Source: an uncultured Prevotella sp. (GTDB taxonomy: Bacteria > Bacteroidota > Bacteroidia > Bacteroidales > Bacteroidaceae). From it: 26,018 nucleotides of DNA. The first letter of the stretch is position 1. Every line of letters begins with the position of its first letter. The notes below the pieces were generated by a model, which was not told the DNA's origin, searched no databases, and saw only the letters and a list, made by a program, of their open reading frames with translations. The stretch is taken from contig CAKQAD010000019.1 in the NCBI GenBank assembly GCA_934215545.1, positions 1 through 26,018 on the forward strand, given 5' to 3'. Shown here piece by piece: positions 3,877 to 25,300 of this stretch. Made by a program: the position numbers and the translations under genes.

Positions 3877-3889
3877 GATAAGACTTAAG

Positions 3890-4115
3890 AGTTTTGATTT
3901 TTGAATTTTGAATTTTGCGCTTCGCGCATTTTGAATTATTCATTTTTGAGTTATGAATTCGCAGCCAAAATGCGCCAACAGCGAAAATTCAAAGATAGTG
4001 CAAGCCGAATGCAATAAAGCTTGCTTTAATTGCTGAGGCGCAGCCTATCTTATTCAAAATTCAAAAACTCAAAATTGCCGAAGGCAACGACTCAAAATTC
4101 AAAACTCAAAATTTA
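3890..4115 (+). repeat. Heptamer repeat block 1 (between nadB and the sprA 3' end)
   Basis: The left part is made of GARTTTT heptamers (GAGTTTT, GAATTTT), the right part of their reverse complement AAAAYTC, so the block is a large imperfect inverted repeat. Between the arms lie small GC hairpins, TGCGC-TTC-GCGCA at about 3916-3928 and GCC-GAA-GGC near 4077, and one 60-nt hairpin unit at 3992-4051. It fills most of the gap between the convergent nadB and sprA. No ORF is supported in it. Confidence 0.85.
3992..4051 (+). repeat. 60-nt hairpin unit, copy 1 (plus orientation)
   Basis: The unit starts AAGATAG and ends with its complement CTATCTT. Moving inward the two sides pair as TGC/GCA, GCC/GGC, GCAAT/ATTGC and AAAGC/GCTTT around a TT loop, with small bulges, so the whole unit can fold into one hairpin. 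This copy reads GCCGAATGC where the other two read GCCGAAGGC, a single base difference. Confidence 0.8.
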
Positions 4116-4132
4116 AAACTGTGCCCCCTGCC

Positions 4133-7100
4133 CTACCTCGTGAGCGAGAACTTCAGGCTTAGGCCGAAGTCTTGCGTGGTTGTAGGATAGCTGCTCGACG
4201 ACAACAACGGGGTGTTGGTCTGCCTGTCGTAATAGAAGCTCATGGTGAGCAGTCGCGACAATGTGTAGTCGGCAGAGAACGACAGCTTGAAAGCGGTGTT
4301 GCCGCTGCTTGCCGAGCTTGTCATGGTGGCAATGTCGCGGCATATCGATGCTTGCTTACGTAGGCTTAGGTCGAGGCGCAGGCGCAGGTCGTTGTTCACG
4401 CCATTGATTGATCGCGACGACGATGAGCTGGCTGACTTATTGGCATCCTTACCCTTGCCCTTCTGCTTTACACGGCGATGCTTGTTGCCGCTGCCGAAGA
4501 TGTTGAGGTTGTTGATGGTGTAGCCTGTGCCAATCACCCAGTCGTGCGACGACGACTCGTTCACCTGCACTGATGTCATGCTAAGGCTTAGCACACGCGT
4601 CTGTCGGTATTCGGCCTTGATGGTCATGTTGTTGTTGAGCGTGAAGTCGATGCCAAGCAATGGCGAGAACGACTCGTTTATGCTCACCGTCGACACATTG
4701 AACATGGAGTTGGGCACTGGCATGTCGGTAGTGGCGTCGTTGATAAATCCGAGTCCATTCATATACTCCATATATGTGCTATACGATGAGTAGGAACCTA
4801 CGGCATATATGCTCTTGTAGGAGTGGTTGATGTTGACACTCTTGAACACATCGCGGAACCACGGCAGCTTCGACAGTCCGCTATACTTGATAGTCCAGTT
4901 GGGCAGCAGGTGTGCCAACGATGGGAATATCGACAGCGAGCCCCCGCCCATATTGGTATAGGCAGCGAGGAATGCTGGCACCATAACATCAGAGCTGTAT
5001 TTGTTGACACCGCCGTTGGCGGCATCGAAGGTTTGTCCTGCCAATGGCGAGCCAGCCGGATACACTGCCCCGGCATATTGTGCCTGCACACGCTGTCGAT
5101 AGCTTTCGAGCGAGTTGCAGAAGCGCTCAAACGATGCCGAATGATAGCCATTGTCGGCATTGCCAGAACCCTCGAAGGCGCTGCGCAGCGACATTGTAGT
5201 CATGGTGAATGTGCCACTCTGCGTTGTTGGGTTGCCTTGATACATATACTGCACAGAGCGCGATGTGGTGACGGTGCGACTGGCGTTGAGGTCGATTTTG
5301 AGGTTGCGCACTGGCTCGAGTGTGGCTCGTATCTGCAAGTCTTCCGTGCGACTTGTGGTGGCTGGTGTAGCGAGTGAGTCGTTCATGAGCAGCCATCCGT
5401 TGTCGCGTGCCTTCTCAATGTAGGAGTCGCCGATGAATCCGAAGGCGAAGTCGAGTCCTGGCGACAGCGGACCATTGCCCGATCCCTGTCCGAACACATT
5501 GCCTATCATTGGCTTGAATCCAGGCAACGACATAGAGTATTGGTTGCGGTAGCTCACATTAACATTGCGCACCATCATCAGGAATCGTGCTGCCGACTGT
5601 GCCCATCTGTACCACGCCAGCTCTTCGAGAGGCTTGCGTGCCACCACCGACACCTTAATGTTTGTGGCAGAGTCGACCTTGTTCAGTATTCGTATGGTAT
5701 TGTTGTCGGTGCGACGATATTTCAGTTCGAAGGCCTTGCCATCGGCAGTCTTTGCAGTTACGATGATGCGCTTTGTCTGCTTGTTGTGCGACACAAATAT
5801 TGTGGTGTCGGGCATGAGCGTCACCTCGCGTTCATACGCCTTTTTGTTTTTAGGCAACTGATTGCGGAGCATGGCAAGCTGCTTGGCATCGCCGGTGGCG
5901 TTCTTGTCGGCAGGTGTCTTGCCTTTGCCGTCTTTGCCGTCTTTGCCATCTTTGCCATCCTTATCCTTTGCTTTTGCAGCCTCTTTTGCCTTGCGTTTCT
6001 GCTCTGCCCGCTTGCGTCGTGCCTCATCGGCCTTGCGCTTGTTGGCAGCAGAGTTGTCGCGGCGGAATCGGTCGTTGGCCTTCTTCAGGAATGGCACATG
6101 ATTATAGAGTTTCTCCATATTAAACTGCCCGTTGACATTGAGCTGTCGGTTGTTGGCAATGGTGTTGCCAAGAGCCGTACCGTCTTCAAGGTCGGTGCCT
6201 CGCATCCAGCTATAGGTAGCGTTGTAGGATGCATCGGCATTGACCCAGTCGAACACTGGCAGCAGGTTGAGCGGCAGCTTGTAGGATGCCTGGAAGTTCT
6301 GGTTGTACTTCAGTGGTGTTCCCATGTGCTTTATAGACGTCCACACAGAGTCTTTCCATGCCGAGTAGCTGTCGGGATAGAGGTCTTTGTTGATTGGTGT
6401 GTATGGCTGTTCTATCTCTGCATTGGTGGCACTTTGGAAGTTCATGTGCAGATTTTTGGTCAGATCCCAGCGTATGCTGAAGTCGCGGTTCCACAGGAAT
6501 TGCGACGAGAAGGTGAGCGGCAGATTCTGGTTTTCTGTCGACTCCATGTCGCGCTCCTGCAGTTCGTAGTAGCTTCGTGTTATCTCGCTGTTGAAAGCCA
6601 CGTTTTGTGGCAGCCAGTTCAGTCCGATACGCTTAGGCAGGTCGAGCCATTTTGAGCGGCTGCGCAGTTTCTTGAACGGCTCATAGGGTTTATACACTGG
6701 CGACCATGTGTAGGCAAATGCTCCTCGCCAGTTGTCCTCTTTCTCATAGACTGTCGTCTCGCCTGTGGTGTAGCTATGGCTATGGCTGTAGGACAATGAG
6801 AAGTTGGCAGGGTCGTAGGGCATTGGGTGTCGTTTGTTCTGTATGCCCACTCGCACATTCGACAGCGAGAAGTTGGTTTGCGTTACCTTTGTCACGGCAA
6901 TGCTTTCTATTGAGTCGCGCTCGTGTTTTGAGCCGGTGGCGTCGAGTGCGTCCTTGAGCTCCATATCGGAGTCGAGGGGGTTGTACTTAGGCGATGTCTT
7001 CTCTTTCGTCACGGAGTAGTAGAGTGGCACCGACACCTTTGCCTTTTCGGGGAAGAACTTACCCAGCTCCACGCTGGTGGTCACGGTGTAGTTGGAGTAG

Positions 7101-10100
7101 TTGTCGGTGGAGCGTTCTGCCACACCCTCCTCAAGTCCGCCGAAGCCTGCCGAGGTGTAGCGTCCCTGCACGTTGACGGTGCCGAGGTCGGAAAGCTGTA
7201 GGTTGAGGTTGCCCTGCGCTGCCCAACCGCCGGAATTGTTGAATTCCTTGAGTCGCAACTCATTCACCCACACCTCGCCGGTTTTCACCTCGCCGGCATT
7301 GTTGCGCACGCCTATCACCATGGTCTTCACCTCGCCCAGCGTAGGATTGCCCATGATGGATATCTTGTTCTTGGGGTTGTCGGAGTCGTAGGCGGAGTAC
7401 ACACGATTGTATGATGCCTGTCCGAGTGCCTTAGCCTTGTTGCGCTCCTTCTTGAGTCCGGTGAGTTTGGAGAGAGCTATATCGAGCATATTCTCCTTGG
7501 GCCACACCGCCCATGCGTCGTTAGACGAGTAGCGGCTATACTGCCCTGGCACGGTGAGCTTCAGTGGAATCTCGTATTCGTAGTAGTTGCTCTTGTAGTC
7601 GGAGCCGAGACGTATGAACACTGCCAGCTGTCCGTCTTGCAGATTTGTGGTGTTAGGCTCCATGGCATTGGCATGCACATACATCTGCAGGCGCTTATAC
7701 TGGCGCATGTCGAGCGATGTGTTCTTATACACCGCCTTCGACTCGCCGGTGCCAAGTGTCTGCACAGTCATGGCAAGTGCCTGCTCGTTGTTCTCCACCA
7801 GCTGTGGCTGTGTGGGGTCGTTGCCTCGTGTTATGCCTGGAGGCAGCACATAGTTCACGGGCTGCTTGTCGTTGTTCTCTTCGATGTTGACGGCGCTGAC
7901 AGCCATCTTGCCTGATGTAGACCCGGAGTTGTCGAGGTTTTGCTGATATACGCGCCACTCTCCACGCACCAGGTCGAGGGTGCCGAATCGTAGCACCACT
8001 GGGTGCTTGAATCCGGTAAGGAACATACGCATGAAGCGCATTGATGTGAAGTCGTTGATAGAGCCCACCCGCTTCTGATATTCGCGCAGCGGTATGCGGA
8101 ACTGATACCACGACACTGTCTCCGTTTTGTTGTTGCGCAGCTTCTGTGCTGCAGTGCGCTTGTCGACGATGTAGTTGCGTCCCACCTCAAGGTCTTCGGG
8201 GCGCACAGAGATGTGATATTGGAAATACTTCTCGTATTCGTTCAGCGTATAGTCCTGGTTGATGTCCTCCACATCGGGCGTCGACTTATAGGATGTGTCG
8301 TAGCTCTCGGTTCGCGAGTCGCTATCGGGCGAGTTGCCCTGTGGGTTGTTGATATACTTATATCGGCGCAGTATTGATGCCTGCATATTGTCGTAGTCGG
8401 TGCCACGGAAGTAGTGATAGTCGTCGCCGGCAGGGTCGGCCCAGATGCTGTCCCAAACGGCGGGGTTCACCTTGCCCTGCACTTCGCGCAAGAATTCCTG
8501 ATACGACTCCCACTGTCGTTCCTCGTCATTGTTCAGTCCGTTGTAGCCCACATCCTGCAATGCTCTGGCGCCCTTGCTTGTGGCAAAGGCGTAGGTTACG
8601 GTGGCTTGGTTGGGCACCTTTCCCCACTGTGTTGTTGTGAAGCTTTGCGAGCCGTCGACGGGCATTCCGCTCTCGTAGTATTTCTTTCCATCGCGCAGAA
8701 TGTCCTCGCTCATCTCGCCGAGGTTTATGTAGAAGTCGCCACCATGGTCGGATGCGGTGCCTTGCTCACGGGTGTAGATGAATGGGTCGAGCATCCAGAA
8801 TTCTATGTATTCTATGTTGGCAGCCTCGAAGTCGTTGGTGTCGAGTTTTCGCATCATGCCTCCCCAGTGCTGCTGCGGATTGTTGAGTGTTCCGTCGGGC
8901 GCCAGGTCGGGGTTGAAGTTGTATGGTCCACGCTCGTTGGGATAGTAGGCAAGGTTGAGCACGTTGAGTGTCGATGTGGCACCATTGTAGGAGCTTTGGT
9001 CGCGGTTGGGGAACAGCTCTTTAACATACACCTCGCGCACATAGTGGTTAGACAGCTGGTCGAGGTCGCTCTTGATGTGGCCTGGTGTGAGCGACGACGA
9101 GCGGCGTGTGAACAGCGGGTCGATGGTGTACCATGCCATGCGCGATCGGTTGAAGCCCGACTTCAGTGTGGCCTTGTCGGCCGACTCTGGGAACATCGAT
9201 GGCACGCTTGATATCACCCACGATGTTGGGGTGCTCACATCGATGGTGTTCTTGGTGTTCTCGAAGTCGTCGATATACGATGCGTTGTCTTGTGTGCCGC
9301 TGCTCTGTCCGGCAATGAGCTGTGCAAACTCGCCGCTGAACGATATTGACGATGGCTGTGTAAGGTGCAGGAATGGCAGCTTGTCGAGCATATTGGTGAG
9401 CCACTGGCTCTCCTTCTTCCAGTTTATATTGAGGCCCCAGATGGTGTTGTTGAGCGGCTCGGAGCCCATATTCACCTTGTTGGTGAGTGGCTGTTCGGAT
9501 AGGTGCTGGAGTGTACCCGACAGCTGGAAGTTTTTGGAGATGTCGTACTCCCAGTTGACGCCAAACATCGTCTTGCGTTCCTGTGCATAGTCGGTGTTGC
9601 TCTCGAGCGACACATTCACTGCTGTGCCGGCATCGATAATGCTTTGGTTTAGAATGGTCACCTCACCGGCAGAGTAGTCGACAGAGTAGTCGGTGCCCTC
9701 GGCAAGCGTCACTCCGCCTGCCGTTACCACCACAGAGCCCTGCGGGATGTTGTAGGAGCCGAGCTGTATGATGTTGGCCGATGTGCCACGAAACTGTCCG
9801 CTGAGCATGTACTTATCCTTCTCGGCTATCTGCTTTGCCACGGTCTTTGTAGAGTCGTAGAGTTCGGTGTAGGCATATTTCAGTGCCTTGTCGGCAGGCA
9901 CGCCGCGCTGCACCAGATAGTTGTAGATGTGCTTGCCAAAGGGTTCTGCCACTGGGAAGAACACGCGACCATTCGACACGGTGTAGCCCTCGACAAAGTC
10001 GAAGTAGCCATTGGAGTGTGCCTTGTTGTTGTTGTCGAGGCGGTCGGCACCGAGCACTTTTATGAGTGTCTGGCTCTTTACCTGCGGCTCTGGCAGATAC

Positions 10101-11890
10101 GACAGATACACGCCTGCCGTGTCGCTCTGATACTTCACGTCGAGGCGGAACTTCTCGCGCTCCACCGACGATGCCAGGTAGTACACATTCTTCATCATCA
10201 AGCCCCAGTTGCCTTGCTTTGGGTTGTTGCTGGTGTTCTTCAGCGACTTCACGAACAGTGCCTTGCTGGTGTCGGTGACGTCGCTGGCAAACTCGCCCAC
10301 CTGATAGGTGGTGCCGCCATAGGTATATTCGTAGGCTATAGCAAGCACCTGGTCGGTCTGCAGCGATGTCTTCAGCGATACATAGCCCAGCGATTGGTTG
10401 ACGGTGTATTCTGAAGAGTTGAGCAGACGTGCCTTCTCGAGCTTCTCATAGTCGCTACCGCCCACAAAGCCTGGAATAGCATCGAGCACCGACGATGTCT
10501 GGTCGATGTTGCGTGCCTCGACATATTGCGTTGTCATGGCACCATACTCGGAGTTGGCGGCGTTGCATGGCACTGGCTGCCCTGCCACGCCCCACATCTG
10601 GTTCGACACGGCCTTGTTCTCGCCGAGGTCGGTGAGTGCAATGATGTTACGGGTGTTGCTGGTGCTTCCCGACTTGTTGGTGACCCATATCTCCACACGG
10701 TTTATGCTCACTCCCGATGTAAGGTTGGGCAGTGTGCGCATGTTGTCATCGTAGCGGTCGTGGAAATATTGCGACAGGAAGAAGTGGCGGTTTTCCTCGT
10801 AGTTGGCGGCATCGATTTCGAAGGGCGTGAACTGCTTTCCACCCTTCGACGACACGCTCTTTGAGCTCGACTTCTTTTGCGAAGCCACCATCTGCAGCTT
10901 CAGCTTGCCAAACTGCAGGTCGGTGCGGAAGCCGAATAGCGACGAGGCGCCCTTCACCAGCGACGAATTGCTGGGAAACGACACATTGCCAGCCTCTATG
11001 AGCTTGACAATCTCGTCTTCCTTGCCATCATATTTCAACTTGAGGCTTTGGGCATCGAAGTCGAATGTGGCGTCGGTGTTGTAGTTGAGGTTCATATTCA
11101 CCTTGTCGCCCACCCTACCATTCATGTTGATGTTGATCTTCTCGTCGAAGTCCATCGTAGTGGTCTTGCGGTTGCGTATGGGCAGCGATGGGTTGTCGAT
11201 ATTCTTCATTGTGGCGCCAAACTTCAGTTCGGCAGAGCCCTGCGTCTTTATGCGCACGCCGCCAGGACCAAATATCTTCTCTGCCGGACCGAGGTCGAAG
11301 TGCATGTCGGTGAAGTCGAACTTCTCCTTGCCCTTTGCCTGATATATCTCGTCGTTCTTCTTACGGAAGAAGTCGCTCATCATGCGCTTCTCGCTCCACT
11401 TCATATACTCCTCGGTGGTCATCATCACCGGTGCATTGATATACGATTGGCTTATCTTCGAGCCAATGACATAGCGGTCGAGCGAGTCGTTATATTGCAC
11501 GTCTTGCTTAAGGTTGTCGGGGCGGCGCAGGTCGGCAGCACCCTGGTCGAGGTCGTCGAGGGTGATGGGTAGTGTGCGCTGTATCTTCCAGCGTGGGTGC
11601 AGCAGCGAGTCGGGAATGGTGTCGGTGGAGTGTATGGTGGGCTGCGCCTTCACCTTCATGGTGTCGGCAGTGCGGCGCGACGGCAACTTAATGGTGCGGC
11701 GCGACTGCATCATCGGAGCGGTGAGGGCATACGATGCCACTGCTGTAGCAAGAAAAGCCACAGCAGCGAGCGTTGCCGCCGATAGGCGAGGCAGCCTACC
11801 GCACAATCGTCGTAATATGTTGAATATGCTATTCAATTGTGAGTTTTGAGTTTTGAATTTTGAATTTTGAATTGTGCGCCGTGGGCGCAT
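4133..11890 (-). CDS. sprA: Type IX secretion outer-membrane translocon SprA (Sov)
   Basis: Giant outer-membrane barrel that forms the type IX secretion pore and releases cargo with C-terminal sorting domains. The ORF is 2585 aa, close to the 2,400-2,500 of Flavobacterium SprA and Porphyromonas Sov. A hydrophobic export signal lies near residues 36-58 (LSAATLAAVAFLATAVASYA). Family-like stretches include FDFTDMHFDLGPAEKIFGPG near 190, many aromatic-rich beta strands, and a C-terminus ending LSLKFSLTR. A lysine-rich, GKD-repeat insert lies near residues 1945-2005. The start is doubtful: the only upstream ATG (11890) and roughly the first 18 codons are heptamer-repeat DNA. A TTG at 11836 would give a compact signal peptide (NSIFNILRRLCGRLP...), and no ATG occurs between the two. 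ruvA upstream is a neighbour often seen in Bacteroidota. Confidence 0.93.
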   Translation of the reverse strand: MRPRRTIQNSKFKTQNSQLNSIFNILRRLCGRLPRLSAATLAAVAFLATAVASYALTAPMMQSRRTIKLPSRRTADTMKVKAQPTIHSTDTIPDSLLHPRWKIQRTLPITLDDLDQGAADLRRPDNLKQDVQYNDSLDRYVIGSKISQSYINAPVMMTTEEYMKWSEKRMMSDFFRKKNDEIYQAKGKEKFDFTDMHFDLGPAEKIFGPGGVRIKTQGSAELKFGATMKNIDNPSLPIRNRKTTTMDFDEKININMNGRVGDKVNMNLNYNTDATFDFDAQSLKLKYDGKEDEIVKLIEAGNVSFPSNSSLVKGASSLFGFRTDLQFGKLKLQMVASQKKSSSKSVSSKGGKQFTPFEIDAANYEENRHFFLSQYFHDRYDDNMRTLPNLTSGVSINRVEIWVTNKSGSTSNTRNIIALTDLGENKAVSNQMWGVAGQPVPCNAANSEYGAMTTQYVEARNIDQTSSVLDAIPGFVGGSDYEKLEKARLLNSSEYTVNQSLGYVSLKTSLQTDQVLAIAYEYTYGGTTYQVGEFASDVTDTSKALFVKSLKNTSNNPKQGNWGLMMKNVYYLASSVEREKFRLDVKYQSDTAGVYLSYLPEPQVKSQTLIKVLGADRLDNNNKAHSNGYFDFVEGYTVSNGRVFFPVAEPFGKHIYNYLVQRGVPADKALKYAYTELYDSTKTVAKQIAEKDKYMLSGQFRGTSANIIQLGSYNIPQGSVVVTAGGVTLAEGTDYSVDYSAGEVTILNQSIIDAGTAVNVSLESNTDYAQERKTMFGVNWEYDISKNFQLSGTLQHLSEQPLTNKVNMGSEPLNNTIWGLNINWKKESQWLTNMLDKLPFLHLTQPSSISFSGEFAQLIAGQSSGTQDNASYIDDFENTKNTIDVSTPTSWVISSVPSMFPESADKATLKSGFNRSRMAWYTIDPLFTRRSSSLTPGHIKSDLDQLSNHYVREVYVKELFPNRDQSSYNGATSTLNVLNLAYYPNERGPYNFNPDLAPDGTLNNPQQHWGGMMRKLDTNDFEAANIEYIEFWMLDPFIYTREQGTASDHGGDFYINLGEMSEDILRDGKKYYESGMPVDGSQSFTTTQWGKVPNQATVTYAFATSKGARALQDVGYNGLNNDEERQWESYQEFLREVQGKVNPAVWDSIWADPAGDDYHYFRGTDYDNMQASILRRYKYINNPQGNSPDSDSRTESYDTSYKSTPDVEDINQDYTLNEYEKYFQYHISVRPEDLEVGRNYIVDKRTAAQKLRNNKTETVSWYQFRIPLREYQKRVGSINDFTSMRFMRMFLTGFKHPVVLRFGTLDLVRGEWRVYQQNLDNSGSTSGKMAVSAVNIEENNDKQPVNYVLPPGITRGNDPTQPQLVENNEQALAMTVQTLGTGESKAVYKNTSLDMRQYKRLQMYVHANAMEPNTTNLQDGQLAVFIRLGSDYKSNYYEYEIPLKLTVPGQYSRYSSNDAWAVWPKENMLDIALSKLTGLKKERNKAKALGQASYNRVYSAYDSDNPKNKISIMGNPTLGEVKTMVIGVRNNAGEVKTGEVWVNELRLKEFNNSGGWAAQGNLNLQLSDLGTVNVQGRYTSAGFGGLEEGVAERSTDNYSNYTVTTSVELGKFFPEKAKVSVPLYYSVTKEKTSPKYNPLDSDMELKDALDATGSKHERDSIESIAVTKVTQTNFSLSNVRVGIQNKRHPMPYDPANFSLSYSHSHSYTTGETTVYEKEDNWRGAFAYTWSPVYKPYEPFKKLRSRSKWLDLPKRIGLNWLPQNVAFNSEITRSYYELQERDMESTENQNLPLTFSSQFLWNRDFSIRWDLTKNLHMNFQSATNAEIEQPYTPINKDLYPDSYSAWKDSVWTSIKHMGTPLKYNQNFQASYKLPLNLLPVFDWVNADASYNATYSWMRGTDLEDGTALGNTIANNRQLNVNGQFNMEKLYNHVPFLKKANDRFRRDNSAANKRKADEARRKRAEQKRKAKEAAKAKDKDGKDGKDGKDGKGKTPADKNATGDAKQLAMLRNQLPKNKKAYEREVTLMPDTTIFVSHNKQTKRIIVTAKTADGKAFELKYRRTDNNTIRILNKVDSATNIKVSVVARKPLEELAWYRWAQSAARFLMMVRNVNVSYRNQYSMSLPGFKPMIGNVFGQGSGNGPLSPGLDFAFGFIGDSYIEKARDNGWLLMNDSLATPATTSRTEDLQIRATLEPVRNLKIDLNASRTVTTSRSVQYMYQGNPTTQSGTFTMTTMSLRSAFEGSGNADNGYHSASFERFCNSLESYRQRVQAQYAGAVYPAGSPLAGQTFDAANGGVNKYSSDVMVPAFLAAYTNMGGGSLSIFPSLAHLLPNWTIKYSGLSKLPWFRDVFKSVNINHSYKSIYAVGSYSSYSTYMEYMNGLGFINDATTDMPVPNSMFNVSTVSINESFSPLLGIDFTLNNNMTIKAEYRQTRVLSLSMTSVQVNESSSHDWVIGTGYTINNLNIFGSGNKHRRVKQKGKGKDANKSASSSSSRSINGVNNDLRLRLDLSLRKQASICRDIATMTSSASSGNTAFKLSFSADYTLSRLLTMSFYYDRQTNTPLLSSSSYPTTTQDFGLSLKFSLTR
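5924..5959 (-). repeat. 9-bp tandem repeat inside sprA (GKD tract)
   Basis: Four 9-bp units, TTTGCCGTC twice then TTTGCCATC twice, encode a run of Gly-Lys-Asp on the minus strand. They sit in a lysine- and alanine-rich segment (KADEARRKRAEQKRKAKEAA upstream) that looks like a charged, disordered or coiled insertion between barrel segments. Confidence 0.8.
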
Positions 11891-12190
11891 TTTTGAGTTT
11901 TGAATTTTGAATAAGATAGGCTGCGCCTCAGCAATTAAAGCAAGCTTTATTGCCTTCGGCTTGCACTATCTTTGAGTTTTGAGATGCAGCGGAGCTGCAA
12001 TTTTGAATTTTGAATTTTGAGTTTTGAATTATTCTCGGCTTCGCCTGCGATTTTTGAATTTTGAATTTTCGCTGTTTGCGAGTTTTGAGCTGCGAATTCA
12101 TAACTCAAAATTGATAAATTCAAAATTGCCGAAGTCAACAACTCAAAATTCAAAACTCAAAACTGCGCCCACGGCGCATCTCAAAACTCA
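11841..12190 (-). repeat. Heptamer repeat block 2 (between ruvA and sprA)
   Basis: About 350 bp of GARTTTT heptamers on the left and AAAAYTC on the right, with GC hairpins TGCGCC-CAC-GGCGCA (both orientations, near 11876-11890 and 12164-12178), GCAGC-GGA-GCTGC near 11985-11997, and GGC-TTC-GCC near 12038. The 60-nt unit is present in the opposite orientation to blocks 1 and 3. The block covers the ruvA stop codon (12188-12190), the whole ruvA-sprA gap, and the first codons of the sprA ORF as read from the ATG at 11890. Confidence 0.85.
11913..11972 (-). repeat. 60-nt hairpin unit, copy 2 (minus orientation)
   Basis: The reverse complement of this stretch is identical at all 60 positions to the copy at 17223-17282 and differs from the copy at 3992-4051 at one base. 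It lies in the 5' leader of sprA, so it would be transcribed in any ruvA-sprA message. Confidence 0.85.
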
Positions 12191-12805
12191 CTTTATTTGC
12201 TTAAGCGCCAGCTTCACCACCTGCTCCACTGGCAGCGTGGCATCGGCAGTGAGCAGCTCTGTAACCACCTTTGCCGATGGTGCTGGCGAAAATCCGAGCA
12301 TAGTGAGCGCCGCCACTGCCTCGTCGCGCACATCCGATGGCACGGTGCTGGTGGTGCCGCCACCGCTGGCAGGCAGTTGCTGGGCAATGCCCAACTGCAC
12401 AATCTTATCTTTCAGGTCTACAATTATGCGTTGCGCCGTTTTCAGCCCTATTCCCTTCACGCCTTTCAGCAGGCGCTCGTTGCCCTGCGCTATAGCCCCA
12501 GCCAGCTCTGATGGCGAGGCAGCCGACAGAATCATGCGTGCGGTGTTGGCACCCACGCCCGACACTGTTATAAGCAGGCGGTAAAGATCGCGCTCCTGAT
12601 GCGAGGCAAAGCCAAAGAGCGTGTAAGAGTCGTCACGACCACCCGCAACAAGCGATTCGTGCACAAAGAGCTTCACCTCCCCTTTGCCCTGTATGGCTTC
12701 GTAGGTGTTCAGAGAGATGCCAAGAGCATAGCCCACGCCATAGGCTTCTATAACGGCTTGCGCCGGCGTGAGCTCTGCCAATTGGCCTTTTATATAGTCT
12801 ATCAT
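12188..12805 (-). CDS. ruvA: Holliday junction branch migration protein RuvA
   Basis: RuvA tetramers bind four-way DNA junctions and load the RuvB motor for branch migration in recombinational repair. The 205 residues match the family. The N-terminal OB-fold region begins MIDYIKGQLAEL; two helix-hairpin-helix motifs are visible, VSGVGANTARMIL near 80-93 and VKGIGLKTAQRII near 116-128. A linker rich in S/G/T (about 143-158) leads to the C-terminal RuvB-binding domain (EAVAALTMLGFSPAPSAKVV). Its stop codon falls in a heptamer repeat block and sprA follows on the same strand. No consensus promoter is seen upstream on the minus strand; a perfect 12-bp palindrome AATAACGTTATT lies at 12813-12824. 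Confidence 0.95.
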   Translation of the reverse strand: MIDYIKGQLAELTPAQAVIEAYGVGYALGISLNTYEAIQGKGEVKLFVHESLVAGGRDDSYTLFGFASHQERDLYRLLITVSGVGANTARMILSAASPSELAGAIAQGNERLLKGVKGIGLKTAQRIIVDLKDKIVQLGIAQQLPASGGGTTSTVPSDVRDEAVAALTMLGFSPAPSAKVVTELLTADATLPVEQVVKLALKQIK

Positions 12806-12944
12806 CTTATAAAATAACGTTATTATATAGTATAATAAACGCCATCGACATTGTTTTATTGTATATGGCAGTGCTTTTTTAAAGCGTACAAAGAATCGTC
12901 AAGAGCATCGAAACACCATTATTCATATATTTCTTTGTTTTTCC

Positions 12945-12975
12945 TTTGCAGAATTATATATTTTGCGTATATTTG
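12945..12975 (+). promoter_or_regulatory. Full Bacteroidota promoter of the candidate small RNA
   Basis: TTTG at 12945-12948, exactly 19 nt, then TATATTTG at 12968-12975. Both elements match the Bacteroidota housekeeping consensus, making this one of the two best-matching promoters in the window. The expected start of transcription is near 12981-12983. Confidence 0.65.
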
Positions 12976-12981
12976 CCACGT

Positions 12982-13068
12982 CAGTAATGACCAGCGGGTG
13001 GTATACCTTGGGAGCAAGACCTTCTCGACACTACTCCGATAGCAGCCTTCGGGCTGCTATTTCTTTTT
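12982..13068 (+). ncRNA. Candidate small RNA of about 87 nt, family not recognised
   Basis: The stretch runs from the predicted transcription start to the end of the T run of a strong intrinsic terminator. It has no credible ORF. It does not match my recollection of SRP RNA, tmRNA, RNase P RNA, 5S RNA or a tRNA. It contains the palindrome GGTATACC and a GGAG...CTCC pairing possibility besides the terminator stem. It lies between the divergent ruvA and the lipoprotein gene at 13294. It could alternatively be a terminated leader or attenuator for the downstream genes, but 225 nt separate its terminator from the next ATG, which has its own -7 box. Confidence 0.5.
13039..13068 (+). terminator. 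Intrinsic terminator of the candidate small RNA
   Basis: ATAGCAGCC, loop TTCG, GGCTGCTAT (13039-13060), followed by TTCTTTTT. A perfect 9-bp stem with a stable tetraloop and a T run. Confidence 0.8.
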
Positions 13069-13277
13069 AAAAGGGTGCTGCTTCTATATTTAAAAGGTGC
13101 CTTTATAGAATTCTGAATGGCAGGCATCCTGGCAAGAATTGAAACCTAATAACCAATTGGGGTTAAAGCAATTGATTTTCATCGTTATTAAAGCAATCCC
13201 CCTCCCCTTCCCCTCCATTATCTCATAAAATTTATTAAAATAAAAAGGGTTCATCGCCCTGTGATAGCGGAATGTTG

Positions 13278-13285
13278 TACTTTTG
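13278..13285 (+). promoter_or_regulatory. -7 box 8 nt before the lipoprotein start
   Basis: TACTTTTG matches TAnnTTTG. Only 8 nt separate it from the ATG at 13294, so transcription would start about 0-3 nt before the coding sequence. No TTTG is seen at -33. Confidence 0.45.
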
Positions 13286-13293
13286 CCGATGCA

Positions 13294-13698
13294 ATGAAAT
13301 ATTTCTGGCTTTTAACTATTATATTAATATTGGCGTCGTGCGCCAAAACCGAAGACGAGAAGGCAGCACCCCTGCTCGAAAAAATCAACATGCTCTATAG
13401 CCAAGGAAAATATAGAGAGACTCTCGACTCTATTACTGCCTTGCGCGAACGCTACCCCATGGCAGTGGATGCCCGCAAAACCGCTCTAACAGTGTGGCAG
13501 AACGCCTCGCTAAAAATGGCGCAGGCAGATGTGGCGGCAACAGACATAATGCTGCAACAGACTATTGCCCGGCGCGACACGGCTGCAACACTACTCCACC
13601 GCAACATGCTACAGGCAAAATGCGACTCGCTGAAAGCACGCTATGAGGCCATGTGCGGAGTGGTGAGAATGATACACATCAGGCAGAAACAGAAATAG
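13294..13698 (+). CDS. Small lipoprotein of unknown function
   Basis: 134 aa from the ATG at 13294. I chose this start over the GTG at 13261 because it opens directly with a lipoprotein signal: MKYFWLLTIILILASC, lipobox LASC with the acylated Cys at residue 16. A charged linker (AKTEDEK) follows, then a helical region (LLEKINMLYSQGKYRETLDSI) resembling a single TPR-like helix pair, then an Ala/Gln-rich helix. No enzyme motif is visible. It leads a run of plus-strand genes (DUF1599 protein, DoxX-type protein, tpiA). That order is, to my recollection, common in Bacteroidales. Probably anchored to the periplasmic face of a membrane; function unknown. Confidence 0.75.
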   Translation: MKYFWLLTIILILASCAKTEDEKAAPLLEKINMLYSQGKYRETLDSITALRERYPMAVDARKTALTVWQNASLKMAQADVAATDIMLQQTIARRDTAATLLHRNMLQAKCDSLKARYEAMCGVVRMIHIRQKQK

Positions 13699-13701
13699 CT
13701 G

Positions 13702-13733
13702 TTTGGCTATATCACAATAAATTATTACTTTTG
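13702..13733 (+). promoter_or_regulatory. Promoter of the DUF1599 gene
   Basis: TTTG at 13702-13705, 20 nt, then TACTTTTG at 13726-13733. Both elements match the consensus. The box ends 8 nt before the ATG at 13742 and overlaps an upstream in-frame GTG, which therefore cannot be the start of a message made from this promoter. Confidence 0.6.
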
Positions 13734-13741
13734 TGCCGAAT

Positions 13742-14296
13742 ATGGACTTTAACAAAACAGAACGTCAGTTTGGCGAGGCGATGCAGGAGTGTCGCACGCT
13801 GTTCGAAAAGAAGCTGCACGACTATGGTGCTTCGTGGCGCATACTGCGACCTGCATCGCTCACCGACCAGCTCTTTATAAAGGCAAAGCGCATACGATCG
13901 CTCGAAACTACGGGAGAATCGCTCGTAGGCGAGGGCATATTGCCCGAATTCATAGCCCTGATAAACTATGGCATCGTGGGACTGATACAGCTGAAGCACG
14001 GATATGCCGACACGGTGGATGTGACTCCGGAGCAAGCCATGGCGATGTACGACGAGCATGCAAAGGAATGCCTGCAACTGATGTTGCGCAAAAACCACGA
14101 CTACAACGAGGCGTGGCGCGACATGCGCATAAGCAGCTACACCGACTTCATACTCACCAAAATACAAAGAGTGAAGGAAATAGAGAATTTAGGGGGCGAC
14201 ACATTGGTGTCGGAAGGTGTCGACGCCAACTATATGGATATAATAAACTATGCTTGCTTCGGTGTTATCAAGATGCATGAACAAGAGCAGGAATAG
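13742..14296 (+). CDS. DUF1599 protein with duplicated domain
   Basis: 184 aa starting at the ATG at 13742. The protein is two copies of one module. Residues about 20-85 ([49 protein letters not shown]) align with about 107-175 ([49 protein letters not shown]). The HDY...W, TD, K.(K/Q)R and INY positions recur in both. This is the DUF1599 family, which I recall being linked to nucleotide modification in phage contexts; the chromosomal Bacteroidales version has no established role that I know of. Its end overlaps the next gene by 20 nt, implying translational coupling with the DoxX-type membrane protein. Soluble, no signal peptide. Confidence 0.8.
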
Positions 14297-15578
14297 GCTC
14301 ACCTTCATAGCGGTGAACATTGCGAGGCTGTGTCTGGCGCTAACCTTCATAGTGTCGGGGTGTGTGAAAGCCATCGACCCCTTGGGCACGCTATATAAGC
14401 TAAAGGACTATGCTGTGGCAATGGGATGCCAGCAATGGACTCCCGACTGGCTGCTATTGGTGGCGGCAGTAGGCCTAGCGACACTGGAATTTGGCATGGG
14501 TGTGCTGATGCTCTTTGCCATCAGGCGGCGCTTGGTGTCGAAGATGGCGGTGGCATTCATGACCATGATGACCATCGTTACTGTATGGATTTACATTGCC
14601 GACCCAGTGAAAGACTGCGGATGCTTCGGCGATGCCATAACGCTTAGCAATGGGGCCTCTCTGCTGAAGAACATTGTGCTGCTGGCGTGTGCGTTGCTGG
14701 CAGCCCGATGGCCACTGGCAATGCCACGGCTGATATCGAAAGCCAACCAGTGGCTGGTGTGCAACTATACCGTGGTGTGGGTGCTGGGCACAAGCATCTA
14801 CTGCCTGTACTACCTGCCGCTTATCGACTTCAGGCCTTACAGCATTGGAACGAACATAAAGAAATCGATGGAGATGCCTGAGGGAGCGCCCGAGCCAGAG
14901 TTTGAAACGACATTCATTCTGACAAAGGGCGGCGAGACACGCGAGTTTACCATCGACAACTATCCCGACTCTACATGGACATTCGTCGACTCGAAGACAA
15001 TACAGACAAAGGCTGGCTACGAACCGCCGATACACGACTTCAGCATTGCACGCACCAGCGATGGCTGCGACATCACCGATAGCGTGCTGACACGCAAGGG
15101 CTACACCTTCTTGCTGATATCGCCAAACCTGGCGGTGGCCGACGACAGCAACTTCGGACGCATAGACCGCATCTACGAGTATGCGCAAGAGCACGACATT
15201 CCGTTCTACTGCCTCACAGCATCGGGAACCGACGACATTGCCCGATGGCAGGATATGACGGGAGCAGAATATGACTTCTGCAACACCGACGAGACCACGC
15301 TGAAGACGATTATTCGCTCTAACCCTGGACTGCTGCTGCTGAAAGCCGGCACCATAGTAAACAAGTGGAGCCACAACGCTCTGCCAAACGCCACCGACAC
15401 AGAGATCTTGGCACAAGACCGACCAGGGACAGCAAGTAGCATGCTGATGATAGCACTGACATTCTTGGTGCCACTGGCGCTGCTGACCATTGCCGACAGG
15501 TTGTGGGCATGGACAAAATGGATTAAAAGAAAAAAACATATAACAGAATATCCAAAACTTTCAAAAACAAAAAAAGAA
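14277..15578 (+). CDS. BT_3928/DoxX-type membrane protein, in frame with tpiA (no stop codon)
   Basis: I chose the ATG at 14277 ([10 protein letters not shown]), overlapping the DUF1599 gene by 20 nt, over 14250. The first ~150 residues hold four hydrophobic segments with [12 protein letters not shown] and VKDCGCFGD. This is a DoxX/MauE-type domain, whose CGCFG cysteines suggest a redox role. One more membrane segment lies near 155-180 ([17 protein letters not shown]). A soluble region of about 230 residues follows ([27 protein letters not shown], thioredoxin-like in flavour but without a CxxC). A last membrane helix sits near 383-402 ([21 protein letters not shown]). After a lysine-rich tail ([18 protein letters not shown]) the frame runs without a stop into tpiA; the end given here is the base before the tpiA ATG. 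Function unknown. Confidence 0.75.
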
Positions 15579-16340
15579 ATGAGAAAGAAAATTGTAGCAG
15601 GCAACTGGAAAATGAACATGAACCTGCAAGATGGCGTGGCTCTCGCCAAGGAAATCAACGCAGCTCTCGTGGCTGACAAGCCTAACTGCGATGTAGTTAT
15701 TTGCACTCCTTTCATTCACCTGGCTTCTGTAGCTGCTGAGCTCGACCAGACTGTAGTGGGTCTTGGTGCTGAGAACTGCGCCGACAAGGAGAAGGGTGCT
15801 TACACTGGCGAGGTGTCGGCAGAAATGGTTAAGAGCACTGGTGCTCAATACGTAATCCTTGGCCACTCTGAACGCCGCCAGTACTATGGCGAGACAGCCG
15901 AAATTCTCAAGGAGAAGACCGACCTGGCTCTCAAGAACGGACTCAAGGTGATTTTCTGCTGCGGTGAGACTCTCGAAGAGCGCGAGGCAGAGAAGCAGAA
16001 CGAGGTTGTCAAGGCTGAACTCGAGGGTTCTGTATTCCACCTCGACGCAGAGGCTTGGAAGAACATCATCATCGCTTACGAGCCAATCTGGGCCATCGGC
16101 ACTGGCAAGACTGCCACATCTGACCAGGCAGAGGAAATGCTCGCATACATCCGCTCTATCGTAGCAGAGAAGTATGGCAACGAGGCTGCTGAGAACACTT
16201 CTATACTCTATGGTGGAAGCTGCAAGGCAAGCAACGCTCCTGAGCTCTTCTCTAAGCCTAACATCGACGGTGGACTCATCGGTGGCGCTTCACTCAAGTG
16301 CGCCGACTTCAAGGGCATCATCGACGCTTGGAAAAAGTAA
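15579..16340 (+). CDS. tpiA: Triosephosphate isomerase
   Basis: Interconverts glyceraldehyde 3-phosphate and dihydroxyacetone phosphate in glycolysis. From the ATG at 15579 it is 253 aa, the normal length. It begins [13 protein letters not shown] with the catalytic Lys in NWKMN; the catalytic His is in ILGHSERR, the catalytic Glu in [11 protein letters not shown], and the phosphate-binding loops in YGGSCKASN and [12 protein letters not shown]. Codon use is visibly more biased (GCT, CTC, AAG, AAC, ATC) than in the upstream frame, as expected for an abundant enzyme. The A-rich stretch just before the ATG is the kind of initiation region Bacteroidota favour. I infer that most TpiA starts here even though the reading frame upstream is open. 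A terminator hairpin follows. Confidence 0.95.
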
Positions 16341-16370
16341 TTGAAACACAACTCACAACACACTCTCTAT

Positions 16371-16418
16371 ACACTCCAGGCTCTAATAAAAGGAACCTGG
16401 AGTGTTGGAGTTTTATTT
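16371..16418 (+). terminator. Terminator after tpiA
   Basis: ACACTCCAGG (16371-16380) pairs perfectly with CCTGGAGTGT (16396-16405) over a 15-nt loop, followed by TGGAGTTTTATTT. It lies between tpiA and the SPOR gene and probably ends the tpiA message. Confidence 0.7.
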
Positions 16419-16430
16419 GAGACCTTTAGA

Positions 16431-17111
16431 ATGAAAGCATACATCACACGATTGCTGCTGATGGCAAGCCTTGCTATCTGCATCACAGTCGACGCCAATG
16501 CACAATCCTACACGCAACACCTTCAAGAGAAAAAGCAAGGCGCTGCCAGCGTGACCGTGACACAGAGTAGCGAAATAACAAAGATAATAGACGAGGCAGA
16601 TATAAGCACCAAAAAGAAGGAGCCTGCACCAAGCAATCAGCATACTGCAGCCAGCGAGCACACAGCCGGCAGCCTGCACCCGACTGCTGGCAATGCACAC
16701 TCGGCTACTGGCAATGCACACTCGCAGGCCACAACAAGGCACCCGGCAGCCACAAGCCAGCACCCTACAAATGCTGCTGATGGGCAGACCGCCGACGAGG
16801 GGCAGCAGAACACCGAGACAGGGCAGCACAAAATGATGCGACGAAGCTATAAGGTCAACGGATATAGAGTGCAGATATATGCAGGTGGCAACTCGCGCAA
16901 CGACAAAATTAAAGCGCAGAACGTTGGCAACTCCATAAAGAAGGCGTTTCCAACACACCCCGTATATGTGCATTTCTACTCACCACGATGGATATGCCGC
17001 ATGGGCAACTACCGCACCTACGAAGAGGCAAGCGCCATACTCGCACAGGTGAAGAAGATGGGATATAGCCAAGCTTGCATAGTGAGCGGAAAAATTACTG
17101 TGGCGTATTAG
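16431..17111 (+). CDS. SPOR-domain protein with His-rich linker
   Basis: Starts at ATG 16431 (MKAYITRLLLMASLAICITV), a signal peptide with a likely cut after DANA; the upstream TTG at 16341 would place 30 extra residues before it. 226 aa. Residues about 60-135 form a low-complexity linker rich in His, Ala, Thr and Gln with a repeated GNAHS. The C-terminal ~85 residues are a SPOR domain (GYRVQIYAGGNSRNDKI, FPTHPVYVHFYSPRWICRMGNY, YEEASAILAQVKKMGYSQACIV). SPOR domains bind denuded peptidoglycan glycan strands at division sites, so this is probably a periplasmic cell-envelope protein. It follows the tpiA terminator, and a heptamer repeat block starts at its stop codon. Confidence 0.85.
   Translation: MKAYITRLLLMASLAICITVDANAQSYTQHLQEKKQGAASVTVTQSSEITKIIDEADISTKKKEPAPSNQHTAASEHTAGSLHPTAGNAHSATGNAHSQATTRHPAATSQHPTNAADGQTADEGQQNTETGQHKMMRRSYKVNGYRVQIYAGGNSRNDKIKAQNVGNSIKKAFPTHPVYVHFYSPRWICRMGNYRTYEEASAILAQVKKMGYSQACIVSGKITVAY
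16689..16724 (+). repeat. Tandem repeat in the SPOR-protein linker
   Basis: GGCAATGCACACTCG occurs at 16689-16703 and 16710-16724, period 21 bp, encoding GNAHSAT then GNAHS. It is the most regular part of a His-rich linker of about 75 residues. Confidence 0.8.
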
Positions 17112-17393
17112 GAGTTTTGAGTTTTGAATTTTGAATTTTGAGTTGTGCGCTTCGCGCATTTTGAATTATTCATTTTTGAATTATGAATTCGCAGCTCAAA
17201 ACTCGCAAACAGCGAAAATTCAAAGATAGTGCAAGCCGAAGGCAATAAAGCTTGCTTTAATTGCTGAGGCGCAGCCTATCTTATTCAAAACTGAATAACT
17301 CAAAATTGCCGAAGGCAACAACTCAAAACTCAAAATTCAAAATTCAAAACTGCGCCCACGGCGCATCTCAAAATTCAAAACTCAAAAATCAAA
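17111..17393 (+). repeat. Heptamer repeat block 3 (between the SPOR gene and folE)
   Basis: GARTTTT heptamers on the left turn into AAAAYTC on the right, with hairpins TGCGC-TTC-GCGCA, GCC-GAA-GGC and TGCGCC-CAC-GGCGCA and one 60-nt unit. Order and spacing are nearly those of block 1, including the shared stretch TTTTGAATTATTCATTTTTG. It runs directly into the folE ATG, so the A-rich end of the block forms the folE ribosome-entry region. No ORF is supported. Confidence 0.85.
17223..17282 (+). repeat. 60-nt hairpin unit, copy 3 (plus orientation)
   Basis: Identical to the reverse complement of the copy at 11913-11972 and one base different from the copy at 3992-4051. It lies in the folE upstream region. 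Confidence 0.85.
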
Positions 17394-17394
17394 A

Positions 17395-19505: not shown

Positions 19506-19555
19506 AGCCAATCAGTCATTAGATTTGGGATAAACATAATAGATTATCAAGAAAC

Positions 19556-19615
19556 AAAAAAGTATCTCTATATAAAAGTAGCATCTTCGCTACTTTTATA
19601 TAGAGATACTTTTTT
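19556..19615. terminator. Perfect 27-bp bidirectional terminator
   Basis: Bases 19556-19582 are fully complementary to 19589-19615 with a 6-nt loop ATCTTC. The outer ends are six A and six T, giving a U run in both transcription directions. It lies between the convergent exonuclease III and rubrerythrin genes and serves both. Confidence 0.9.
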
Positions 19616-19679
19616 ATTACGATTATTCCGAATAACAGCAGAACATCCACTGGTTATTCTTTACTATCGATACTGCCAA

Positions 19680-22340: not shown

Positions 22341-25300
22341 TCAGAAACCATCGAGCTCGTAATACTCATCGTCGGTGCCTACCGACTGCGGCTGATTTTG
22401 TTTTTTGCCCTTTGTTGTAGCAGAAGGCTCATCACCAAAGTAGAACTCGTCTTCGAGCTGTTTCGACTCCTTAGCTTTATCTTCGGTCGAAGGCTGTGGC
22501 TCACCAGGCACTACAGTCTCACTGGTAGAAGGCTTCGTTGGTTCGTCGATAACGATTGTTTCGCTGCCTGGCGTTGCTGTAGACTCACTGGCGGAAGACT
22601 GTGGCTCACCAGGCACTACAGTCTCACTGGTAGAAGGCTTCGTTGGTTCGTCGATAACGATGGTTTCGCTGCCAGCGTTCTGCTCAGTGCTCTTCGATGG
22701 CGGCGTTTCGACATCTGGCACACTGACAATTGTTTGTTGCTGCGAACTACCTGAAGCAGGCTCGTCATCAAGATCAATAGTGCCTGTTGCAGATGTTGTC
22801 TTTTGCGATGCCTCAGGCTCTTCGTCAACAAACGTATTGATCGTTGTAGAAGTGCTTTGAGCATCAGAGTCGTCAATATCAGAATCGTCGGCATCGGCAG
22901 GTCGCTGACGCCTTTCATCGGGCATCGCCACCTCAGTTGGCATATCGAGCAATAGATCTGTGCTTATCTGCAATGGAGCGAAGTGCAGGCGATAGAACTC
23001 GGCATAGTCGTCGTAGCTATACTGTCGGCCCAACAACACAAGGTTGGGCTCGCTGATAAGCAGTATGCGACTCTTGCCAAGCAACTGCATGACATGTGTC
23101 TGTCGTTGCAGCTGACGGGCATATTGCAACACCTCGTCGTAGTTGCGGAAACCGCTCACCATCATACGATGCAAGCCATCCACCTCCTCGACACCAATAT
23201 CGAAGTTGCGCACCATATACGATGTAAAGTTGTAACGGGCCAACTCAAAGAGCATGCGGTTCTCGTCTACAGAGTCGGGCTTATAGGCTATCATATACAC
23301 AAACGATGCATTACGGTCGTCAGTGAGTTGCTGGGCTGCAGTAGAGTCGCCCTCGTTGAGCACCACCGAGCGGCGTTGCCAGATGCCATCAAGGTCGAAC
23401 TTGCCACCACGCAGGCGGCGCCCCTCCTTCACGCCCTTCACTATCATGCCTGCCATCTCAGCCACCTTGCTCTGCGGATAGTCGAGCACTACCTTATTCA
23501 TATCGGCGAGGCATCCGTCGGCATCGCCATTGTTTAGCTTGCCCAGACCTCCGATAAACACAAAACGATCGCGGTTGGCACCGAGTGGAAAGCGCTGCTG
23601 CGACACTTCTACATTGGCACTCACTTCATTGTAGCGCGATGCCTTAAAGGCTGCATAGGTAGCGGCATAAAGCGAATCTTCGATATGCACTCCAAGTCGA
23701 GCATTCTCTACAAAATATGGGTCGGAGAGAAGCGTAGTCCAGTCGCTATTGGGATATTGCTGCTTCAGACGGTCGATATATGTATTTGCCACCGCCGCCT
23801 GACGCTTGCGCATATACAGCAGATAAAGATGATAATATGCCTCGTCGGTCTTCTCAAAATCGGCATAACTGCCAGTGAGTCGCAGCAGATTTTTCTCTGC
23901 CAGCGACAGATTGTCGAGTTTGTCTTTAAACATCACACCGGCATTGAACAGTCCATCGGCAATTATTTCATTGCTCGCCTTTACTTGCTCAGGGTTGAAT
24001 GGAATCTGCGCCATGTAATACTCACGGCGATGCGGATTGTTTTGTGCCGAGTCGGCTATGGCGGCTATAGAGTCAGCAGCGAGTTCTGCCTGATATATGG
24101 AGTCGCGTTGCTCCTGTGTTATCTCTGGCTCGGCGGCACTCTCGAATGCCACCACCGTTTTATTTACACGTTGCCAGTTGTCTACATTGGCACGTTTACC
24201 CCAAAGTTTCTGGAAGGTCTGTTTGCCCTGCTGCACTGCCATAGGATTGTAGAAATACCATAGCGACTTCTGCCCATTCTGCAGCATGGTGTTGCTGCTG
24301 GCATTGTTATTATCAACGTTGCTGCCACCATTCTGCTGCATTGCCTCTTCGGCAGCCCTTTCAGCCTGAGCACGACGCTCCTCGCGTTCCTTCTTTTTAA
24401 GAGCCTCAATAGTGCGGTCGATAGCTGCATTACGGTCGGCTTCGCTCATTTTGGCAAGCGCCTGCAGAGAGTCTTGCAGATGTATTGCATCGGTATATGG
24501 CACCAACTGGTCGAGCACCTTAGAGCGCTTGCTCAGCTGCTCGTAGTCAGGACGCTCCTTGTCGAGCTGTCCGATGGCTTCGCCATAACAGCGCTGTGCA
24601 TCATTATATCGCTCCATATCCCAGTAGATGTCACCAAGACGCAACAACAATACACCCTTCTCTATGCCAGAACGGGTGGCTTTGGCTGCGCCACGCTCAT
24701 AGGCTTTTATGGCTTGTATGGTGTCGCGTTGCGCCATGTATATGTTGCCAATGGCATAATACACCTGATCGAGATAGTCCTTATTCTTGTCGGAGCGCGC
24801 CATACGCTTCAGCTTACCTATCATCTTACGCGACTGCCCTTCCGACATCACCTCGGTCATGGATATGCGGGCATTGAATTCAAGTTGGTAGGGAGGATTC
24901 AAGCGTATCACATGGCGGAATGCCTTCATTGCCTCCTGCCTATTGCCAAGGGCTGTCTGCAACTGCCCCATGAGATACCACTCACGGGCACGTTGCTTGC
25001 GACGCATCTCGTGCTTTATAACATTGCGCAGATAGGGCACCGCCTTGTCGTATTGCTGAGCATGGATGTAGTAGTCGGCATAGGTGTAGTCCCACTCCTT
25101 GCGTGCCGACCAGTGCATAGAATCGCGCTGCATGCCACGAATCACATCTTCAGCATCATAGAGCCACCCTTCTTCAATATAGCTCTTGGCAAGCCATGCA
25201 CGGGCCTTGCCATATATGGCAGGTTGAGTTTTGTAAAGGCGACTCATATATGCAAAAGTAGAGGCGGCCTCGTCAAAAGAGCCCTTATAGAATTGTGAGC

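Follow-up and report, generated by a model that had tools for sequence, protein, structure and literature searches.

Three Mirrored Heptad Blocks in a Prevotella Contig and Their Probable Descent From a PF05635-Encoding Junction Element

The stretch of DNA analyzed here (the window) comprises 26,018 nucleotides from an uncultured Prevotella sp. (GCA_934215545.1, contig CAKQAD010000019.1) and contains three blocks that lie between genes and are built from tandem GARTTTT heptamers (heptads), which point inward from both ends of each block. These blocks are probably gene-less, i.e., non-autonomous, derivatives of a junction-dwelling element, which we term the IVP element after the 23S rRNA intervening-sequence protein (IVP, PF05635) encoded in its intact form. 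The intact element consists of a heptad array, a mini-hairpin, an inner motif, a gene for a PF05635 four-helix-bundle protein, and again an inner motif, a mini-hairpin and an inverted heptad array, an anatomy that is seen in two copies in the related genome An906. The computed support comprises the bounded homology of these An906 copies, an inner motif common to gene-bearing and gene-less blocks, gene junctions that are filled in some genomes and empty in others, an inward bias of stop codons in the arms, and strong stem folds. The window blocks are called derivatives and not gene-bearing members because a PF05635 gene lies in two An906 blocks and in no window block, and our confidence is not higher because only two gene-bearing blocks were seen for the GARTTTT word.

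The Blocks of the Window

The three blocks lie where an earlier note, made from the sequence alone, had placed them, and they are far above chance: GARTTTTGARTT has 21 matches in the window, whereas 100 dinucleotide shuffles averaged 0.01 matches and never exceeded 1. The reversal of polarity that the note had described is found in all three, the left arms reading GARTTTT and the right arms AAAAYTC. The mini-hairpins that it had named are present as well, two of those located being imperfect. Near-identical pieces do occur in differing order: block 3 is colinear with block 1 and nearly a copy of it, in stretches of 92 nt (89% identity) and 166 nt (92% identity), and block 2 is a rearranged relative of both. 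As single strands, all three fold far better than their shuffles (z values below), and in each a palindromic core, a separate repeat, is seated mid-block. An inner-end motif, TTTTGARTTNTTCAATTTTGARTT, lies inside 5 of the 10 window arms (shuffles, 0.00). The individual features are listed below; the names of the SPOR-like and folE-like genes at block 3 were assigned by eye.

Block 1
3889..4118: block 1, left heptads 3889-3916, right heptads 4089-4118, fold z -6.1; separated by 14 nt from the stop codon side of sprA and by 153 nt from the preceding nadB stop
3916..3928, + strand: mini-hairpin TGCGC-TTC-GCGCA
3929..3952, + strand: inner-end motif, 1 mismatch to TTTTGARTTNTTCAATTTTGARTT
3991..4051, + strand: palindromic core, AAAGATAG...CTATCTT
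4051..4074, - strand: inner-end motif, 2 mismatches
4075..4087: mini-hairpin TTGCC-GAA-GGCAA

Block 2
11841..12190: block 2, between the sprA start and ruvA, fold z -12.9
11875..11889: mini-hairpin TGCGCC-GTG-GGCGCA
11913..11973, - strand: palindromic core, reversed with respect to blocks 1 and 3
11985..11999: mini-hairpin TGCAGC-GGA-GCTGCA
12033-12050: imperfect mini-hairpin
12102..12125, - strand: inner-end motif, 1 mismatch
12126-12138: imperfect mini-hairpin
12164..12178: mini-hairpin TGCGCC-CAC-GGCGCA
12188-12190, minus strand: ruvA stop codon TGA, overlapping the outermost heptad

Block 3
17112..17394: block 3, filling the junction between a SPOR-like open reading frame (ORF; stop 17109-17111) and a folE-like ORF (ATG 17395), fold z -11.0
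17146..17158, + strand: mini-hairpin TGCGC-TTC-GCGCA
17159..17182, + strand: inner-end motif, 1 mismatch
17222..17282, + strand: palindromic core
17282..17305, - strand: inner-end motif, 2 mismatches
17306..17318: mini-hairpin TTGCC-GAA-GGCAA
17351..17365: mini-hairpin TGCGCC-CAC-GGCGCA

The TATCTTTG end of the palindromic core resembles a Bacteroidetes -7 promoter box, and the core also occurs without heptads after sprA in Leyella stercorea DSM 18206 (L059). Compared against plasmids, block 3 matched one Prevotella record over 25% of the query, within the core; it had no match among phages. An Rfam scan of the window returned nothing at gathering score, and no rRNA was found in it.

Gene-Bearing Blocks in a Relative

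The window is Prevotella/Leyella-like, and in their best segments its sprA product and those of Prevotella sp. 885 (P885) and L. stercorea DSM 18206 are 82% identical. For counts in whole genomes, the heptads were cast into a 19-bp form, GARTTTTGARTTTTGARTT, which matches 43 times in P885, 3 times in SUG386, 255 times in An906, 63 times in DSM 18206 and 13 times in Hallella seregens, with 0 matches in the other four of the nine genomes. The reversed pattern gave 0 matches in P885 and 5 each in DSM 18206 and An906. The earlier prediction of very many copies genome-wide agrees with the 43, 63, and 255 matches, which are counts in relatives. In a sample of 301 genomes of the family, the 19-bp pattern occurs in 24, most of them with few matches.

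In An906, two GARTTTT blocks enclose an intact PF05635 ORF between their arms. The homology of the two copies spans the whole element and ends at the outer heptads on either side (within ~10 nt), while the genes outside differ (recA-like and ackA-like, by eye), and they share the inner-end motif with the window blocks, in L216 with 0 mismatches. The L216 motif lies inside 31 of 53 arms in An906, 12 of 31 in P885 and 10 of 39 in DSM 18206 (shuffles, 0.00). A close An906 paralogue, L221, which groups with both copies at a support of 100/99, uses words that are related but not the same, TTGAATG.

Filled and Empty Junctions

Among 81 loci anchored on sprA (80 of relatives plus the window), the heptad pair is present in the window only. 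The ruvA-sprA junctions of three relatives (L001, L003, and L059) hold another, shorter sequence without heptads, and block 2 therefore looks gained in the window lineage. The SPOR-folE junction contains the 283-bp block in the window, a two-armed array of ~215 bp in An906 and a short, one-sided array only in DSM 18206; the ten further loci shown had no marked heptads at this junction. Before a recA-like gene, An906 carries a full block together with the PF05635 gene, P885 ~31 bp, and G304 a short variant.

The junction between nuoC and nuoD was followed in the best-scoring 30 loci of 54 genomes matched among 57 searched. It measures 1-26 nt in 16 loci, 111-144 nt in three, and 432-575 nt in 11, the filled junctions. 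Two of the three junctions of 111-144 nt can be read as retaining an IVP tail and one arm, and one of the 11 filled junctions (L281) has no intact IVP frame. Arms of the same locus are more alike than arms of different loci (p 0.0014; 9 of the 11 filled loci), so the arms of a copy seem to change in concert as its word drifts. More generally, the arms of one PF05635 locus match each other better than the arms of other loci do. The earlier suggestion of modular spread or gene conversion is partly supported: it fits the copy numbers in relatives, the near-copy blocks 1 and 3, and this likeness within loci.

Mirrored Arms and Stop Codons at PF05635 Genes

PF05635 was matched in 90 of 118 sampled Bacteroidota genomes (87 over the family cut-off), in up to 16 copies. 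From these genomes, the 30 best-scoring hits were taken as the phylum sample, with a single locus from each genome, and 28 of them entered the flank, stop and arm statistics; L245 and L253 had been left out for an ambiguous ORF and later scored 13 and 33. When the 5′ flanks of the 28 loci are compared with their reverse-complemented 3′ flanks, the median score is 23, compared to 16 in shifted windows (p 5e-11), while direct matching of the flanks is not raised over shifted windows of the same loci (p 0.3). Periodicity is raised at lag 7 (p 3e-9) and marginally at lag 8 (p 0.06); it is not raised at lags 5, 6, 9, or 10. Inverted arrays around PF05635 genes have units of 7 or 8 nt, and the word differs from copy to copy. 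The mirrored layout is found in several bacterial phyla.

An inverted score of at least 24 was set as the threshold for arms, the 95th percentile in 462 control ORFs being 21. It is reached by 13 of the 28 phylum loci and one of the two dropped (14/30), by 14 of 14 family relatives and 4 of 6 left out of that count (18/20), and by 8 of 13 loci on cyanobacterial plasmids. The family-relative set consists of 20 examined loci of 30 fetched; the other 10 were eight below the family cut-off plus L212 and L218, which are partial and just over it. Six of its loci were scored separately (L198, 36; L201, 47; L202, 19; L204, 14; L206, 27; L211, 52), and the five genomes termed family relatives had partly been picked for heptad matches. 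For plasmids, 16 of 30 records were opened, i.e., 13 cyanobacterial ones from the top of the list and three (H19, H20, and H25) viewed singly; in the cyanobacterial set the inverted match has a p of 1.6e-5 and lag 7 a p of 0.03. Three of the cyanobacterial plasmid IVP genes (L287, L292, and L296) lie in CRISPR operons, flanked either by cas6 and cas4 or by cas10 and a Cmr3 gene. Loci viewed singly had inverted scores of 61 (Gemmatirosa), 34 (Leptolyngbya) and 56 (L303, a further An906 IVP). On the Azospirillum lipoferum plasmid AZO_p2 (L301), an unannotated IVP gene lies inside a 23S rRNA gene (Rfam LSU, 1511 bits), between heptad-like inverted arms that score 47 when windowed by hand and 20 with the automatic ORF start.

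Stop codons in the arms are oriented. Among 58 arms of 36 loci, 41 have more stops when read inward, 10 more when read outward, and 7 are equal, with the reservation that arms of the same locus are not independent; all three frames are stopped in 35 arms inward vs. 9 outward. With another definition of the arms, the ratio of inward to outward is 15 to 6, 21 to 4, and 11 to 0 in three sets. All six outer arms of the window have 3-4 stops inward in three frames and 0-1 outward. Purine-richness as the sole cause of this polarity was rejected, as the six window arms are <50% purine inward and yet have 3-4 stops in that direction. The period is 7 nt in 45 arms and 8 nt in 13, these two periods being the only ones considered. 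If the repeated unit measures 7 or 8 nt, a stop codon in it falls into each reading frame in turn, as it would not with 6 or 9 nt, which is a possible reason for the odd period.

Alternative Explanations

The arrays could also be passive microsatellites, i.e., slippage would make 7-nt arrays, selection would spare those at harmless sites, and neighboring PF05635 genes would be incidental. This we consider unlikely. It can draw on the variation of array length at one junction between species, on P885, whose arrays occur without a PF05635 hit over the cut-off, and on the occurrence of arrays within open frames, resembling by eye those of LeuRS, PurL, Mfd, an RluA-type enzyme and an NtrC-type regulator. 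The last observation also overturns the intergenic confinement that the earlier note had put up for checking, since some arrays in relatives lie in frame inside long open frames; these arrays necessarily run in the stop-free direction, so that their direction is no independent evidence. In-frame arrays in long, conserved-looking proteins include L138, L144, L149, L151, and others, among them the LeuRS-like and PurL-like examples of H. seregens. However, slippage alone does not account for the arrangement of the arrays. Of 86 clusters, taken from the window and five relatives, a reversed array stands alone in 30 (R only) and a forward array alone in 28 (F only), the two face each other in 26 (F...R), and the opposite order (R...F) is found in 2; within the Leyella-group set, i.e., three close relatives and the window, R...F is absent (0) against 26 F...R. 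Nor does slippage alone yield hairpins, which follow 66 of 161 arms compared to 9.6 in shuffles (24 distinct stems), or locus-specific inverted pairing around PF05635 genes, and no common 24-nt inner motif would be expected from it. P885 has another dispersed repeat, ~400 bp long, which directly adjoins several single heptad arms (at L112, L120, L108, L101, L104, L154, L107, and L117); its ends resemble ATGCAAATAT and its inner words AATAGTGGCACTATT.

If the blocks were bidirectional transcription terminators multiplied by duplication, this would explain the strong folds (z -6.1 to -12.9) and the TTTT that follows the GC mini-hairpins, each arm being read inward. The two-armed blocks are seated at the borders of genes: in 20 of 26, the distance of both edges from a called coding end is between -60 and +30 bp (this summary excludes Hallella and SUG386, the ORF caller for array context was simple, and gene names were given by eye). 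However, 21 of these 26 blocks lie between co-directional genes, only 4 between convergent and 1 between divergent ones, and the idea was dropped on account of these mostly co-directional neighbors. Arrays inside open frames and the heptad-free ruvA-sprA junction in the three relatives inspected speak against it as well, and we regard terminators as quite improbable.

REPIN-like elements moved by a RAYT (Y1) transposase are very improbable: two inverted, hairpin-bearing units are a REPIN-like layout and Y1_Tnp hits exist in An906 and DSM 18206, but the stems vary widely (24 stems) and Y1_Tnp does not track the repeat, for which the idea was dropped, being found in 4 of 9 genomes, among them one without heptads, and not in the heptad-bearing P885 and H. 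seregens (drafts may miss genes).

Several observations weigh against descent from an IVP element, too. No PF05635 gene was found in the window, which gave weak tblastn hits only, and the gene is present in only 2 of the An906 blocks examined, themselves a part of its 255 matches. P885 has 43 heptad matches and yet a single PF05635 hit, under the family cut-off. In the phylum sample, 16 of 30 IVP loci fall below the threshold for inverted arms, and some IVP loci (L239 and L241) have direct arms. Ten of the 58 arms carry more stops outward, and both R...F clusters, which belong to H. seregens, have the opposite polarity. Finally, the IVPs of the nuoC-nuoD junction cluster on the tree (2 changes vs. 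9.3 shuffled; 10 of the 11 filled loci), which implies mostly descent with loss and speaks against very frequent jumping.

How the Element Might Work

The IVP element suggests a course of events in which movement, excision from RNA and action of the IVP in trans are what we infer. The two arms would pair in the transcript, and stops in every frame might exclude ribosomes, so that the stem can form. An RNase III-type activity would then cut the stem, and host genes would tolerate the insert. 23S rRNA intervening sequences are cut out by RNase III. The IVP, described as Avd-like (PMC10053308), may assist in copying the element, and copies that lack the gene, like those of the window, would use it in trans. 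Slippage and conversion presumably maintain the likeness of the two arms within a copy, whereas the word diverges from one copy to another.

The cited passages of PMC10053308 liken PF05635 to Avd, the accessory protein of diversity-generating retroelements, and those of PMC11270868 report it to be encoded in rRNA insertions. A wider reading, which we offer tentatively as a real possibility, is that PF05635 genes together with their mirrored heptad stop-arrays constitute a single, widespread class of small elements in gene junctions and rRNA. The heptamers of Bacteroidota, cyanobacteria and Xanthomonas would then largely be its arms and gene-less relics, which the Avd-like IVP would move in trans via an RNA or single-stranded intermediate. 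The earlier note had missed the protein gene in some blocks of a relative, the inward stops in all frames, and the arrays in open frames.

Relation to Known Systems

Related systems include the 23S rRNA intervening sequences (PF05635, annotated as S23 or four helix bundle protein), which, like IVP elements, hold a gene between inverted arms and in the Azospirillum example have heptad arms of the same style. Unlike these, the window blocks are located between protein genes and are devoid of a PF05635 gene, and they belong to a repeat with many copies in relatives.

Heptamers of Xanthomonas (GGGAATC) and Anabaena (GGGGAYT) form arrays near start and stop codons, mostly between co-directional genes; convergent pairs are described for Xanthomonas, whereas Anabaena has few. 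Related species carry the arrays between the same genes but with differing lengths, and an association with insertion sequences or transposable elements is generally absent, according to the cited passages of PMC4692102. The same strand rule holds here, and convergent pairs near coding ends occur in the relatives and the window (the 26 F...R clusters). In contrast, the word differs, GARTTTT having no G-runs able to form quadruplexes, and no linked gene is named in the passages of PMC4692102. With regard to the earlier statement that no named family is known, the sequence and the layout have to be distinguished. For the GARTTTT word itself, the statement is fair (Rfam gave no hit at gathering score, and a full-text search no Bacteroidales family), while the layout has a precedent in the inward-facing heptamer pairs near start and stop codons that the same passages describe for Xanthomonas (PMC4692102).

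The TAACTGA heptamers of Beggiatoaceae, cyanobacteria and some Bacteroidetes share with the present arrays their intergenic position, overlapping phyla, strain-specific gains and shorter junctions in relatives; in contrast, they are described as direct repeats (one indirect), with no linked gene in the passages concerned (PMC4679880). BOGUAY_0693 was considered as a possible IVP and set aside, its nature not being stated in the passage (PMC4679880). The BrickBuilt miniature inverted-repeat transposable element of Porphyromonas gingivalis is likewise intergenic, made of tandem repeats and from Bacteroidales, but has a 23-nt unit with leader and tail, and both sequence and layout differ in the part of the source cited (PMC4596501).

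REPINs and REP elements offer a parallel of another kind. They consist of two inverted, hairpin-bearing units, and many non-autonomous copies stand beside a rarer gene-bearing partner. In IVP elements, however, the gene between the arms is PF05635 and not a Y1 transposase, the ends are heptad arrays, and the stems vary freely.

Other Features of the Window

Three further features lie outside the blocks. A near-perfect 30-bp inverted repeat with a 6-nt loop (19553-19618), between convergently read ORFs, is terminator-like. An 80-nt tandem duplication, 98% identical, lies within a long ORF (22489-22673). Positions 14250-16340 form a single open frame of 696 aa, in which a membrane protein runs into a triosephosphate isomerase-like part (naming by eye).

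Significance

Heptameric repeats have repeatedly been reported as puzzles, and PF05635 is called functionally uncharacterized, save for its likeness to Avd, in the cited parts of papers on this family. In openly licensed PMC papers, as far as the parts opened go, no paper was found that joins PF05635 to flanking heptads. Linking the two makes both testable, and it suggests that the intervening sequences of rRNA may be one address of a more general, junction-dwelling element.

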